Shown piece by piece: positions 26,926-61,459 of a stretch of DNA of 64,000 bases. Source of the DNA: Armatimonadota bacterium (GTDB taxonomy: Bacteria; Armatimonadota; JADLDR01); contig JADLDR010000018.1 of NCBI GenBank assembly GCA_020846535.1, positions 1-64,000 of the forward strand, given 5' to 3'. The notes under the pieces were generated by a model. It was given only the letters and a program-made list of their open reading frames with translations, did not search any database and was not told the origin of the DNA. Positions within the stretch are counted from its first letter, which is position 1. The number at the start of each line of letters is the position of its first letter. Position numbers and translations under genes: made by a program.

Positions 26926-27861
26926 TCAAATCTTTTCGGCGGCGCGGAGTTTGGCGCTCCGGCTGCGCGGGTTGTCCGCAAGCTCCTGTGCCGAGGGGGT
27001 GACCGGTTTGCGGGTGAGAATTTTCACAACAGCCTTCGCCCCGCAGGCGCATACCGGAAGCTGCGGCGGGCACTGGCATTTTCCAGACAGGCGAGTAAAG
27101 CTGTTTTTGACGATCCGGTCTTCCAGCGAATGATAGGAGATGGCGCACACCCGACCTCCCGGAGCCAGGCAGCCCACCGCTTCCTGAAGCCCTTGTTCCA
27201 GAGCCTCCATCTCGCGGTTGACGCGGATGCGAAAGGCCATATAGGTGCGGGTCGCAGGGTGGATGTCTCTCGGCCACGCCTTTTTCGGGATGGCGGCCAT
27301 AACGATATCGGTCAGGTCTCCCGCCGTGCGGATCGGGTGGATCTGCCGGCGAAGAGCGATCCCGCGGGCGATCCGCCTGGCCCACGACTCTTCGCTGAGT
27401 GTAAAAAGCATGTCGGAAAGCTCTCGCTCGGACAGGGAGTTTGCCAGGTCCGCCGCGCTGAAGGGCAGGGACGGGTCCATCCGCATATCCAGAGGAGCCG
27501 CCTCATCGCGAAATGAAAAGCCCCGCGATGCCGTGTCCAGTTGATGGGAGGAAACCCCCAGGTCGAAAAGAATGCCGTCCGCCGCGGGCAGCCCTGCTCG
27601 CCTCAAAACGGAAGCCACATCCGAGAAATTGGCGCGAATCAGGCTGATATTGCCGTGAACGGCGTCCAGCTTTTGAGCGGCGGCTTCCAGGGCCGCCGGG
27701 TCCTGGTCCAGGCCGACCAGCCGCCCGCCCGGCTCCAGCAGCCGGGCGATCTCCAGAGCGTGACCGCCCCCGCCGAGGGTGGCGTCCACATAAACGCCCT
27801 CAGGTCGCACCTGAAGGAAGGAAATCGTTTCGTCAAGGAGAACCGAGCGGTGATAGCACAT
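26926..27861 (-). CDS. rsmH: 16S rRNA (cytosine-N4)-methyltransferase RsmH
   Basis: HRSVLLDETISFL, VDATLGGGGHA, GILFDLGVSSHQLD, ISYHSLEDRIVK. Confidence 0.97.
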   Translation of the reverse strand: MCYHRSVLLDETISFLQVRPEGVYVDATLGGGGHALEIARLLEPGGRLVGLDQDPAALEAAAQKLDAVHGNISLIRANFSDVASVLRRAGLPAADGILFDLGVSSHQLDTASRGFSFRDEAAPLDMRMDPSLPFSAADLANSLSERELSDMLFTLSEESWARRIARGIALRRQIHPIRTAGDLTDIVMAAIPKKAWPRDIHPATRTYMAFRIRVNREMEALEQGLQEAVGCLAPGGRVCAISYHSLEDRIVKNSFTRLSGKCQCPPQLPVCACGAKAVVKILTRKPVTPSAQELADNPRSRSAKLRAAEKI

Positions 27862-28312
27862 TGCTTCCTGTCGGGTTCGGGGCCATGCCGATGGCGCGGG
27901 CGGAGGCTTCCAGGTTCTCGTCGGAGAATTCGGCCCCCATCGCCTCCCAGCGGCCCTTGTTCCAGATTTCGATCCGGCTGCCCAGCCCGATGATGATCAC
28001 ATCCTTTTCGATGCGGGCGTACTGGCGCAGGGGCTGGGGGATCGCCAGGCGGCCCTGGTTGTCCACCTGCACCTCCGCAGCCTCTCCCAGCAGAAACCGC
28101 TGAAGCTTCAGGGCGTCCATATCGAAGAGGGAGCGGGAGGTGAGATAGCTTTCCAGGCTCTCCCACTCTTTGACCTTGAAAATGAAAAGACACCGCCCGA
28201 CGCCGCGGGAGATAATGAAGTATTTTTCCTCCTCCAGTTCCCTCCGGAACTTCTGAGGGAGGATAAATCTTCCCTTATCGTCCAGCCCGTGTTCGAACGA
28301 CCCTCTGAACAA
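27833..28312 (-). CDS. mraZ: Transcriptional regulator MraZ
   Basis: Canonical N-terminus (M)FRGSFEHGLDDKGRFILPQKFR from a TTG start at 28310-28312 with AGGGGGA upstream; second AbrB-like motif VDNQGRLAIPQPLR. Confidence 0.93.
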   Translation of the reverse strand: MFRGSFEHGLDDKGRFILPQKFRRELEEEKYFIISRGVGRCLFIFKVKEWESLESYLTSRSLFDMDALKLQRFLLGEAAEVQVDNQGRLAIPQPLRQYARIEKDVIIIGLGSRIEIWNKGRWEAMGAEFSDENLEASARAIGMAPNPTGSNVLSPLGSP

Positions 28313-28357
28313 GAAAGTCCCCCTGGAGTGCCCCCGCACTCCCCCCTGACTCTCCCT

Positions 28358-28386
28358 ATTTAACCACATTATTGATTATATGTCAA
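28358..28386 (-). promoter_or_regulatory. Putative dcw operon promoter
   Basis: Minus strand TTGACA (28381-28386), 17-nt spacer, TTAAAT (28358-28363). Confidence 0.65.
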
Positions 28387-28534
28387 GCCTTTTCCTCCAC
28401 CCGATATATTTTTTTTGGCGTTCTCTTATCCGGTTATTAAAGAGCCTTTGCTACCGTCATGCAGAGACGGCAAACAATGGCGAACTATTCGCCCTCGAAA
28501 GGTTTCGCAGGGGCCAAGGCAGCAAAAATCCCTA

Positions 28535-28563
28535 TTGACAAATCGCCCGAAATCTGCTATCAT
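28535..28563 (+). promoter_or_regulatory. Sigma70-like promoter of structured RNA/leader
   Basis: TTGACA, 17-nt spacer, TATCAT. Confidence 0.75.
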
Positions 28564-28569
28564 AAACTC

Positions 28570-28728
28570 AAGAGATTGTGAAATAATGTTCTAGATGAGG
28601 CAGCGAAACCGCCGGAGCCGATCTCCGGCGAGCGGGAAAGAGAGGCTCGTTTCGCGCGCATCCTCCACAACGCTACGGATCGGGCAGAGGGCAGCGTCTT
28701 CGGGGATGCGTGCGAAACGGGCCTTTTT
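28570..28728 (+). ncRNA. Candidate structured non-coding RNA or attenuator leader, family unidentified
   Basis: 7-bp hairpin GCCGGAG/CTCCGGC (28611-28629) and fully paired 22-bp stem 28644-28665/28702-28723 followed by TTTTT; no ORF with coding features. Confidence 0.6.
28644..28728 (+). terminator. Intrinsic terminator-like stem with U-tract
   Basis: GGCTCGTTTCGCGCGCATCCTC pairs completely (three G-U) with GGGGATGCGTGCGAAACGGGCC, then TTTTT. Confidence 0.72.
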
Positions 28729-28802
28729 GGAAGCAGGGTATAGGGTATAGCGGAGCTTCCGCATTTGTCTGCCCCCTACGCCCTAACACCGGAGGAGGCT
28801 AC

Positions 28803-29789
28803 ATGGAAAAGCAGTCGCGGCGGGAGTTTTTGAAGGGGATGACGGTGGTGGGTGCCGGGGTTGTCGGCATGGGGGCAGCCAAGCAGGTGCTGGCTCAGGA
28901 TAAGAAGGAGCCTGCTTTGGTGGTGCTGGCTCGCGATCCGGCGGCCCAGGGGGAGAACCACCGCCTCCAGCCCGATGTGGTGCGGAAGATGGTTTTCCAG
29001 GGAATGAAGAAGCTGAGCGGAAAGAAAACCGACGCTTCGGCCTGGAAGAGCTATTTCGCCCCGGACGATGTGGTGGGGATCAAGATCAACTGCCTCTTCG
29101 GGCGCGGGGCCTCCACACATCCGGAGGTGGTGGCTGCCGTTGTCGAGGGGCTGAAGCTGGCCGGGGTGAAGGCGAACAATATCATCGTCTGGGACAGGAG
29201 CGACGGCGACCTGGCGAAATCGGGTTTCCCGATCAACCGGGAAGGCCCCGGGGTGAAGTGTTACGGCACCAACGACGATTACGAGGACAAGCCTGTCCGC
29301 ATCGGCTCCTTTGTGGGCAGATTCAGCAGGATCCTGACCCAGAAGATTACAGCTCTGGTGAATGTGCCGATCCTGAAAGACCACGGCACTGGCGGCGTGA
29401 CGATTGCCTGCAAGAACCACTACGGCTCGTTCGACAACCCGGGGCCGTACCACGGCAACAACTGCGACCCCTTCCTGGCGGAACTCTGTTCCTACACTGC
29501 GGTCCGCGACAAGACGCGCCTGATCGTCTGTGACGCCATCCGCCCCCTGGCGAACGGCGGCCCTAGCCTGCACAACGAGTTCCTCTGGGACTATAACGGC
29601 ATTCTGGTCGCCACCGACCCGATTGCTCTGGATTATCAGGGCTGGCAGATCATCGAGGCCCGCCGGAAGGAAATCGGCCTGCCCTCTCTGGCCGAAGCGG
29701 GCCGCCCGGTCCGCCACCTGGCTACCGGCGCGAAAATGGGGCTGGGAACGAACGACCCGCAGAAGATGCGGCTGATCAAGATCGGGTAG
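28803..29789 (+). CDS. DUF362 domain protein with Tat-like signal
   Basis: SRREFLKGMTVVGAGVVGMGAAK twin-arginine leader; ATG preceded by GGAGG; DUF362-like KINCLFGRG, PILKDHGTGGVTIACKNHYG. Confidence 0.82.
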   Translation: MEKQSRREFLKGMTVVGAGVVGMGAAKQVLAQDKKEPALVVLARDPAAQGENHRLQPDVVRKMVFQGMKKLSGKKTDASAWKSYFAPDDVVGIKINCLFGRGASTHPEVVAAVVEGLKLAGVKANNIIVWDRSDGDLAKSGFPINREGPGVKCYGTNDDYEDKPVRIGSFVGRFSRILTQKITALVNVPILKDHGTGGVTIACKNHYGSFDNPGPYHGNNCDPFLAELCSYTAVRDKTRLIVCDAIRPLANGGPSLHNEFLWDYNGILVATDPIALDYQGWQIIEARRKEIGLPSLAEAGRPVRHLATGAKMGLGTNDPQKMRLIKIG

Positions 29790-30499: not shown

Positions 30500-30752
30500 A
30501 AAAGCGAAAGCGACGCGGCAATCTCCAACGCAATGCCAAGTAATAGACAACCGTAAATCGATACAGTCTGCGAGAAGCGCAGCGGCGCGGCAATCTCCAG
30601 CTCAATAAATGCATGAGAAGGCTCTGATCGTTAGTGATACCCTGGAGATTGCTTCGTCGCTTTTGCTCCTCACAGACTGTATCGATTTACGGTTGTCTAT
30701 ATTAATGGGAGATGGCTTCATCGCTATCGCTCCCCGCAGACTGTATCGTTAT
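30500..30752. repeat. Cluster of REP-like repeats forming long inverted repeat
   Basis: GACAACCGTAAATCGATACAGTCTGCGAG...CAATCTCCA (30546-30599) inverted at 30643-30697; partial copies at 30500-30530 and 30707-30751. Confidence 0.85.
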
Positions 30753-33791: not shown

Positions 33792-33906
33792 TATTTCCAC
33801 AGCGGCACGGATATGGTGCCGAACAGCAGCGCCAGGGCCAAACCCACTGCCGCAACCTCTCTGAACCATGTTCCCAGCTTCATCTGTTTCATCGGCGCTC
33901 CTTGCG

Positions 33907-34172
33907 TTAGGTATCGATGCAGTCTGCGAGGCACCTTAGTGACGAAGCAATCTCCAGGTAAAATAGGCAGGAGTATCGTCGCTGTCATTGTGAGGAGCGA
34001 AGCGACGAAGCCATCTCCAGCGCCCCAAAGCCCGACAAGGCTCTGTGCGTTGGCGCTACGCTGGCGATGGCTTCGGGCTTCGCCCTCGCAATGACAGCGA
34101 CGATGGCTGCTCCTTGGTTGGCGTTAGGCCGGAGATGGCCGCGTCGCTGCGCTCCTCGCAATGATGGCGACA
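33907..34172. repeat. Cluster of REP-like repeats in both orientations
   Basis: GCTGTCATTGTGAGGAGCGAAGCGACGAAGCCATCTCC and inverse GGAGATGGCCGCGTCGCTGCGCTCCTCGCAATGATGGCGACA; ATCGATGCAGTCTGCGAGG at the left end. Confidence 0.85.
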
Positions 34173-39265: not shown

Positions 39266-39313
39266 AGCCAGCCCTCCGACACGCCTCTCTTGCCGTACCC
39301 TCCCCAAATCCTG

Positions 39314-39469
39314 TATAATAACCCAAGTTGCCACCTAGCCCGGGGCCAGTCCCGTTTTCCATTGTAGGGGCGCGATTCATCGCGCCCCACGGCTTGGCAG
39401 GGCGCGATGAATCGCGCCCCTACCCCGCATGGACCTCAATTCGGGTAGGTAGCAACTTGGGTTATAATA
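39314..39469. repeat. Nested palindromic MITE/REP-like element
   Basis: Outer arms TATAATAACCCAAGTTGCCACCTA / TAGGTAGCAACTTGGGTTATAATA; inner arms GTAGGGGCGCGATTCATCGCGCC (39364-39386, 39401-39423). Confidence 0.88.
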
Positions 39470-39502
39470 CCAAAACAGTTTCATGTGAAGGAGTCCCATA
39501 CG

Positions 39503-41185: not shown

Positions 41186-43741
41186 ATGAGCCGCGCCGTC
41201 CGAACAGGGCTTTGGTTGGTCTTGCTCTGCTATCTGGCGATCCCCGCATGGGCGGCCAAGCCGGCCACCAGGGGCCTTTTTACCGACCGCAGCGGAACCA
41301 TCCACCGCTGGCGCATCGATGACGCCCATACTCTCTACTGGGATGATGCGCCCTATGTGCCGGTCGGGGGCATGTTCGCCTCCAAATACCTGGAAAGCCC
41401 CACCGAAGAGACCTGGAAGGCCGACATCTCTGCTCTGGAAGTCATCAAAAGCAACGGCATTCTGGATCTCTATCTCCTGGCCCCGAACGGCATCACCCGG
41501 GTTCCCCCTGCGGCCCTGCAAAAGCTGATCGATTATCTGGACGCCGCAGGCTTCCGCTACGGCCTGTCTATCAACGACCGGCCCGCCAATCCCCTGGTCG
41601 GCTATGTCGTCAGCCCGGACACCTACCGGATCGGCGATATAGCGATGTCGGGCACGCAGACCGTTCAGGTGTCGGCGGCCCGATCTATCGCCTATGCCCT
41701 GATCAGCTCCGCCCTGAGCCGCGTGGTGGAGGCGGGCCGCGTTCCGGTCCGGGAAGGGCGGGCCTCCGTGCCGGTCAGCGTGCGGGAAGGGCGCAGCTAC
41801 ACTCTCCTTTTTTTGCCGGAGAAAACGGCCTCCCGCGCCTCCGGGGAGCCGCTTCCCGATGTCTGGGACGGCTTCGACGAATACCGCGACCGGCTGGTGC
41901 GCTATCTTTCTCAGGTCCGATTCGGGCCGGGCTTCCGGTTTTACCTGGACCCCTTCGGGCGCAAGCTGGCGATCAAGAGCGAGAGCGCCAGGCTTCTCCC
42001 GACCGGCCCGATCTTCCGGATGCAGTATGAAAACTGGCTCCGCACCCGCTACCGCACCGTCGGGCAGCTCAACTTTGCCTGGGGCCTGCGCGGCCGAGGG
42101 GCCAGCACCTTCGAGAACGCCACCCAGATGATCCCCTTCTGGTACGGCAACCGCGGACAGGCCGCCGTCTACGACCCGGCCCGCAGCCTCTACCTGAATG
42201 CGGATGTCGGCAACTCCAGGCTCTGGAGCGATTTCCAGGAGTTCCGGGACCGCTCCATCCGGGAGGCTATGAGCCTGATGAGCGATATTCTTAAAAGCAC
42301 CGTGGCCGATGTGCCGGTGGTCTATAGCTGGTCGCAGCACAGCTCCATCTTCAGCAACCCCACCGAAAGCGGCTACGACGGCCTTGGGATCGAAGCCTAC
42401 GGTTCCGGCAAGAGCCTGGTGACCGATGCGGCGGCCTACACCTTCGCCCAGGCGGAGGAGGCCGGAAAGACGCTCTGGTGCGTGGTCACCGGAACCCAGA
42501 CAAGCGAAGACCCGAAAAAGTCGCAACTGGGCTTTGCCAGCCGCGAGGCGATGGCAGAACACCTCCGCTGGCTCCGCGATATGGGGGCCAAGGGCTTCTT
42601 CCTCTTCGGCCTCCAACTGCTGCCGGAGGATACCTGGAAATCCTACGCTCTGACGGGCGACCCTAAACAGCTCGGCTGGCTTTCCGGCTTCAAGCGGGAA
42701 CTGGAATCCGATGCGGGCTTTGCGGCCTACCGCCCCCGGGTCTTTTTCTTCCCGACCAATCTCTTCCCTCCCAGCCGCATCAGCGAGATCCGGCCCGGCG
42801 TCTGGTGGGTTCCCACCCTCCGGCGCGGCGTACGCCTCGACCTGGGCGACCAGATGAGCGGCTATCTGATTCAGGAGCAGGACGGCCCGAGGGCATATCT
42901 CTGGTCGAACGGGGAGACGCAAAAAATCGATATCCCGATCACCAAAGGTCAGGAAGTGCAGGCATTCGGCCCTGACGGGACGCCCATCCCGGTGGGCAAG
43001 CGCCCTCGCCTCACCCTGGAGGTCGGCCCGGAGCCGGTGCAGATCAAGGGCCTGGCGGCAGAAGATGTCTTTCCCATGCAGATCGCGGCCAGCGCCATGA
43101 GCGAGTTCGAACGCCTGCTCAAAGTGGCCCAGGCCCGCCGACTGGAGGTCAAGCCCTTCGAGGATACCCTGAAAGGCGTGAAAACGCTCTACAAATTCAA
43201 CGAGGGCACCGCGGCCATCATCTACGGCTCCATCAAAACGCCGCTGCAAATCCTGCGCTCCGCCCTGACGCCCTTCCTCTGGATGGAGGGCGAGCAGCCC
43301 ACCAGCCACACCTTCGACGAGGTGGCTCTGAACGAAGGGTGCAGCAACGGCGCTTACCTGAAGCTCTTCAATCAGGACGCCCCCGGCGACGAGGGTTATA
43401 GCGCCACCTATGAATTCAGCCTGGGAACTGAGGCGGAATACACCCTCTGGCTGGCCGGAAGCCCCCAGAACAGCCCGGAATACTCGCCCTTCCTCTGGTC
43501 TATCGATAACGCCGCCTGGCAGGGAGTCGCCGACACCGCCCCCACCCAGTCCTACGGGCAGGGCTTCGCCTGGACGCGCGTCGGCGCGGCCCAGCTCACC
43601 CGTGGCAAGCATACCCTGCGCCTGCGGATCGCCCAGAGCCGCGCCCAGCCCTCCCCCGCCTGGGCCGCCTCCATCGACGCCCTCGTCCTGTCCCGCAGCC
43701 CCTTTAACCCGGACGGCATCAAGAAGCCAGGCGTGGATTAG
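41186..43741 (+). CDS. Secreted glycoside-hydrolase-like protein (TIM barrel, possible GH42-like) with C-terminal accessory region
   Basis: Signal peptide; QYENWLRTRYRTVGQLNFAWGL, VVYSWSQHSS, GLGIEAYGSG; family assignment uncertain. Confidence 0.5.
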   Translation: MSRAVRTGLWLVLLCYLAIPAWAAKPATRGLFTDRSGTIHRWRIDDAHTLYWDDAPYVPVGGMFASKYLESPTEETWKADISALEVIKSNGILDLYLLAPNGITRVPPAALQKLIDYLDAAGFRYGLSINDRPANPLVGYVVSPDTYRIGDIAMSGTQTVQVSAARSIAYALISSALSRVVEAGRVPVREGRASVPVSVREGRSYTLLFLPEKTASRASGEPLPDVWDGFDEYRDRLVRYLSQVRFGPGFRFYLDPFGRKLAIKSESARLLPTGPIFRMQYENWLRTRYRTVGQLNFAWGLRGRGASTFENATQMIPFWYGNRGQAAVYDPARSLYLNADVGNSRLWSDFQEFRDRSIREAMSLMSDILKSTVADVPVVYSWSQHSSIFSNPTESGYDGLGIEAYGSGKSLVTDAAAYTFAQAEEAGKTLWCVVTGTQTSEDPKKSQLGFASREAMAEHLRWLRDMGAKGFFLFGLQLLPEDTWKSYALTGDPKQLGWLSGFKRELESDAGFAAYRPRVFFFPTNLFPPSRISEIRPGVWWVPTLRRGVRLDLGDQMSGYLIQEQDGPRAYLWSNGETQKIDIPITKGQEVQAFGPDGTPIPVGKRPRLTLEVGPEPVQIKGLAAEDVFPMQIAASAMSEFERLLKVAQARRLEVKPFEDTLKGVKTLYKFNEGTAAIIYGSIKTPLQILRSALTPFLWMEGEQPTSHTFDEVALNEGCSNGAYLKLFNQDAPGDEGYSATYEFSLGTEAEYTLWLAGSPQNSPEYSPFLWSIDNAAWQGVADTAPTQSYGQGFAWTRVGAAQLTRGKHTLRLRIAQSRAQPSPAWAASIDALVLSRSPFNPDGIKKPGVD

Positions 43742-43820
43742 GGGATAGGGTGTAGGGTATAGAAAGCGGGCCTTGCAGCACGCGCTATCTCTCGCCACAG
43801 CACCCCAAACCCTATCCCCT
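43740..43820. repeat. Inverted repeat, 12-bp perfect arms
   Basis: AGGGGATAGGGT (43740-43751) / ACCCTATCCCCT (43809-43820). Confidence 0.65.
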
Positions 43821-61391: not shown

Positions 61392-61459
61392 GAGGGCGAA
61401 CACAAGGTTCGCCCCTACAGGCATAGCCCCCCGCAGGGGCGAACCTTGTGTTCGCCCTC
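61392..61459. repeat. Perfect inverted repeat, 24-bp arms
   Basis: GAGGGCGAACACAAGGTTCGCCCC (61392-61415) / GGGGCGAACCTTGTGTTCGCCCTC (61436-61459). Confidence 0.9.

Follow-up and report, generated by a model that had tools for sequence, protein, structure and literature searches.

Attenuation leaders, among them riboswitches, T-boxes and protein-bound leaders, bring together a promoter, a structured 5' region and a ribosome-binding site that follows it. The same succession is found in the 64-kb stretch of DNA from an Armatimonadota bacterium analyzed here (positions 1 to 64,000 of contig JADLDR010000018.1, hereafter the window), and here too a terminator-like stem intervenes whose 5' arm is able to pair upstream (Table 1). 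Our literature search returned nothing on a leader of DUF362 genes and no paper in which Armatimonadetes and riboswitches were treated together. We propose, with a probability of about one half, that positions 28570-28802 form a cis-acting 5' leader of the DUF362 gene with a premature terminator, for which we infer transcription, termination and control.

Table 1. Features of the mraZ/DUF362 intergenic region and its flanking genes, in window coordinates.
Feature	Position	Strand	Basis
Divergent mraZ, first gene of the dcw cluster	27833..28369	-	PF02381 / TIGR00242
Promoter-like site TTGACA-N17-TATCAT with extended TG (extended -10)	28535..28563	+	Consensus scan 11/12; direct reading
Presumed transcript start and 5' unstructured/short-hairpin region	28570..28594	+	Inferred from promoter; fold
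GCGAAAC, 5' strand of possible antiterminator P1 (partner 28649-28655)	28603..28609	+	Inverted repeat I6; nascent-RNA fold; not beyond chance
Hairpin P2, 7-8 bp, CGCCGGAG-CCGAT-CTCCGGCG	28610..28630	+	Folds, inverted repeats
Possible hairpin P3, GAGC / GCTC, 11-nt loop, flush with P1 and P2	28630..28648	+	Nascent-RNA fold
Terminator-like stem, 5' arm; 22-bp core from 28644, lengthened to 27 bp where the A/G-rich segment pairs with the U-run	28639..28665	+
36-nt loop; inner ACGCT/AGCGT pairing 28670-28674 / 28693-28697	28666..28701	+
Stem 3' arm including U-run TTTTT (28724-28728)	28702..28728	+
Copy of dispersed palindromic repeat, AGGGKRTAG ... CTAYRCCCTA, from terminator to ribosome-binding site (~50 nt)	28735..28785	+
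DUF362 protein gene, Tat-type signal (SRREFLKG), presumed target of the leader	28803..29789	+	Pfam PF04015, E 4.6e-23; alignment A1

The region is bounded by the start of mraZ at 28369 on the minus strand and the ATG of the DUF362 gene at 28803 on the plus strand, a divergence already named in an earlier note on this DNA. The promoter read in that note is likewise present, matches the consensus at 11/12 positions and gains an extended TG; we placed the transcript start ~7 nt past the -10 element. Only three sites in the window reach at least 11/12, all on the plus strand, and the remaining two each lie directly upstream of a gene, one encoding an NHL-repeat lipoprotein-like protein and the other a D-alanyl-D-alanine-carboxypeptidase-like protein (named by eye from its sequence), which makes it credible that this genome uses the site at 28535 as a promoter. 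It is the only good plus-strand promoter in the intergenic region, and the scan returned no promoter-like site between the hairpin and the DUF362 gene (28728-28803). The divergent mraZ has a promoter of its own on the minus strand (TTGACA at 28386, a spacer of 17, TTAAAT at 28358); between it and mraZ, three GGGGG direct repeats with an 11-nt period (28318-28350, minus strand) resemble MraZ operator boxes. A match on contig C183 (E 0.01) covers the promoter and the first transcribed bases and precedes a histidine kinase gene; as the hairpin is absent there, it was set aside as sharing at most a promoter core.

Behind this promoter lies a long hairpin. Its core stem joins 28644-28665 to 28702-28723 in 22 unbroken base pairs, three of them G-U (at 28647, 28656 and 28664), and the U-run begins directly after the 3' arm, all as first described; when the U-run itself is paired with AGAGA at 28639-28643, the stem grows to 27 bp and gains two further G-U pairs. 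Two smaller elements from the same description, the pairing within the loop and the hairpin GCCGGAG-CCGAT-CTCCGGC at 28611-28629, were also recovered, the latter extending from 7 to 8 bp. Dinucleotide shuffling of the whole window, repeated 20 times, gave no stem longer than 18 bp, against the 27 bp observed, and 28570-28730 folds at -74.2 kcal/mol, an energy (z -4.3) that none of 200 shuffles reached. The long stem is thus a real structure, far beyond chance. On the plus strand, its five departures from Watson-Crick pairing all read as G-U and none as A-C, and on the minus strand they would be C-A mismatches; assuming that transitions are equal on both strands, such an outcome has a chance of ~1/32 (1/8 for the three of three in the core). 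This polarity favors an RNA from the plus strand and lends it modest support. With 14 G-C pairs in the 22-bp stem and TTTTTGGA following at once, the hairpin has the makeup of an intrinsic terminator, although its U-run is short (5) and its loop unusually large. The ordinary terminator-like hairpins of the window are much smaller, with stems of 11-12 bp and loops of 5-9 nt, which marks the 28639-28728 hairpin as unusual.

Because mraZ is divergent, the hairpin can be met only by plus-strand transcripts begun in the mraZ/DUF362 intergenic region, and because no promoter-like site lies downstream, it should either end a small RNA or attenuate the DUF362 gene. The earlier note had offered both options; the second is the better one, since only transcripts born in the intergenic region can come under the action of the hairpin and the search for another DUF362 promoter came up empty. 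The gene begins 74 nt past the U-run rather than 80. Promoter, terminator-like hairpin and gene also share one direction, the layout of an attenuation leader. In the leader we propose, transcription would begin at the strong promoter, most polymerases would be expected to stop at the U-run behind the hairpin, and those passing it would reach the DUF362 gene, with its Shine-Dalgarno sequence GGAGGAGG at 28790, across a 74-nt spacer that holds the dispersed repeat.

A free-standing small RNA of ~155-160 nt (28570-28728), acting in trans from its own promoter and terminator, is the main rival and a serious one, if on the unlikely side; the DUF362 gene would then be incidental and expressed by read-through or from a promoter that escaped the scan. 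Promoter, ~160 nt of structured RNA and terminator do make a complete unit, and the adjacency to the DUF362 gene may be accidental, given that the spacer is a dispersed repeat. Orthologous DUF362 genes lack the element. The want of a promoter-like site in 28728-28803 speaks against it, as does the fact that the housekeeping small RNAs (6S, SRP, tmRNA) would match Rfam and none did; moreover, the ends do not form a 6S-like closed hairpin, and no relative emerged from any genome searched.

Rfam 15 gave no match across the whole window at gathering score and, with E values up to 10, only a spurious plant microRNA (MIR1858, E 4.8) over 28400-28830, in line with the earlier description of the element as unassigned. 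DNA searches of its own genome and of 291 phylum genomes (this one included) returned short chance matches only. Of two single-sequence covariance models run on the 291 genomes, that of the terminator (R2) found only its own locus and that of the antiterminator (R1) yielded weak matches at the level of chance (E 0.005-0.05 per genome). By DNA search and covariance models together, no homologue was found in the 290 other Armatimonadota genomes, none of which is closer than phylum level, and plasmid and phage collections held no match to the element. In the closest DUF362 orthologues (66% identity) the gene follows a ferredoxin-like gene at a distance of 12-13 nt, and no leader of this kind is present; upstream of 57 other DUF362 homologues there is no comparable stem, two of them having weak 9-10 bp candidates. 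Within the reach of these data, the element thus appears to be private to its lineage. The comparisons with DUF362 orthologues and homologues weigh against the leader reading, as do the atypical stem and loop for this window, the U-run of only 5 and an upstream pairing, P1, that falls within shuffle range (see below). The original description of a structured RNA that carries its own promoter and terminator is supported by the anatomy and by the lack of an Rfam match; no homologue was found from which conservation or covariation might back a function.

The same lack of conservation would suit a DNA palindrome devoid of RNA function, a recent inverted duplication or repeat insertion that came to stand after a promoter by chance, a reading we consider improbable. 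With REP/MITE-like palindromes the hairpin shares its intergenic setting and its long, perfect inverted repeat; the genome holds other long intergenic palindromes, of 24 bp (39364-39423) and 25 bp (61392-61459), and a dispersed palindromic repeat adjoins the hairpin. Unlike them, it is single-copy, a genome search returning its own locus only, and is preceded by a promoter; its departures from perfect pairing are all G-U and on one strand, and a U-run follows it, whereas the palindromes at 39364 and 61392 have no clear U-run. The adjoining 28735-28785 sequence, by comparison, does have several genome copies: in pattern searches of the genome on both strands, its arm pattern matched 49 times against 2 for a reversed control, and its paired-arm pattern 24 times against 0. 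The present length of the spacer, and with it the distance from hairpin to DUF362 gene, may therefore stem from the insertion of this repeat.

Several other repeats were seen along the way. The dispersed repeat, whose cores vary between the arms (AGGGKRTAG)n ... (CTAYRCCCT)n, recurs at ~43740-43820 and at many loci of the genome (L157-L193). At 39310-39480 the 24-bp palindrome GTAGGGGCGCGATTCATCGCGCCCC is nested in a longer imperfect inverted repeat (ATAACCCAAGTTGCCACCTA ... TAGGTAGCAACTTGGGTTATA) and resembles a MITE-like element into which a palindrome has inserted, immediately upstream of a gene; the 25-bp intergenic palindrome at 61392-61459 reads GAGGGCGAACACAAGGTTCGCCCC. A degenerate intergenic repeat made of several stretches like GAGGAGCGAAGCGACGAAGCCATCTCCAG and their complements occupies 33900-34165, with similar sequence at 30640-30745.

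As for how the proposed leader might be controlled, the folds of the nascent RNA offer one candidate. When the RNA ends at 28655-28660, its minimum-energy fold is a three-way junction almost without unpaired bases, in which P1 (GCGAAAC 28603-28609 with GTTTCGC 28649-28655) encloses P2 (28611-28629) and P3 (28630-28648); the junction persists at 28712, until the 3' arm of the terminator is complete. Since it occupies the terminator 5' arm before the 3' arm is made, it could serve as an antiterminator, and if held by a ligand, a protein or a slow polymerase, as it would need to be, it might allow transcription to continue. When the upstream part was shuffled 2000 times, 284 of the shuffles paired with the terminator 5' arm as strongly, and 430 held a perfect match of equal length; these shuffles give no statistical support to selection for the alternative pairing. 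As P1 is not better than chance, P1-based switching of the terminator is possible and no firmer than that. GCGAAAC recurs in the terminator 3' arm (28712-28718), and the resulting GCGAAAC-GTTTCGC-GCGAAAC arrangement is unique in the genome, a uniqueness that is neutral as evidence; with the pairing strength within shuffle range, the arrangement, which at first suggested a designed switch, was not counted as evidence. An integron attC site was ruled out by eye, as GTTTCGC does not fit GTTRRRY. It is doubtful that the locus is a riboswitch or protein-responsive attenuator of an undescribed kind, belonging to a deep Armatimonadota lineage, in which a three-way-junction sensor (28603-28655) competes with an unusually long terminator for control of a Tat-exported DUF362 protein.

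Least probable by far is a peptide attenuator, in which an Arg-rich 51-codon open reading frame (28595-28750) would encode a leader peptide and its translation would govern the hairpin: the frame exists and is Arg-rich, so the earlier statement that these ~160 nt lack a convincing open reading frame needs qualifying, but it has no clear Shine-Dalgarno site, the small frames of the region have no Pfam match, and, as it spans the whole hairpin and reads through the terminator, its stop codon lies past the latter, so that classical ribosome stalling would not fit.

Should it prove to be transcribed and regulated, the proposed leader would be a new attenuator from a little-studied phylum and would give access to the signals that DUF362 proteins answer; at present, as an orphan, it mainly marks a place to look once closer genomes or transcriptomes appear. 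In its general kind it is a known form of structured RNA, present here in a single copy. From the described attenuation leaders it departs in matching no Rfam family, in an alternative pairing at chance level, in having no relatives that show conservation, and in a stem far longer than usual. With ordinary intrinsic terminators it shares a G+C-rich stem followed by a U-run, and from these it is set apart by its 22-27 bp stem and 36-nt loop and by its position, preceding a gene rather than ending one.
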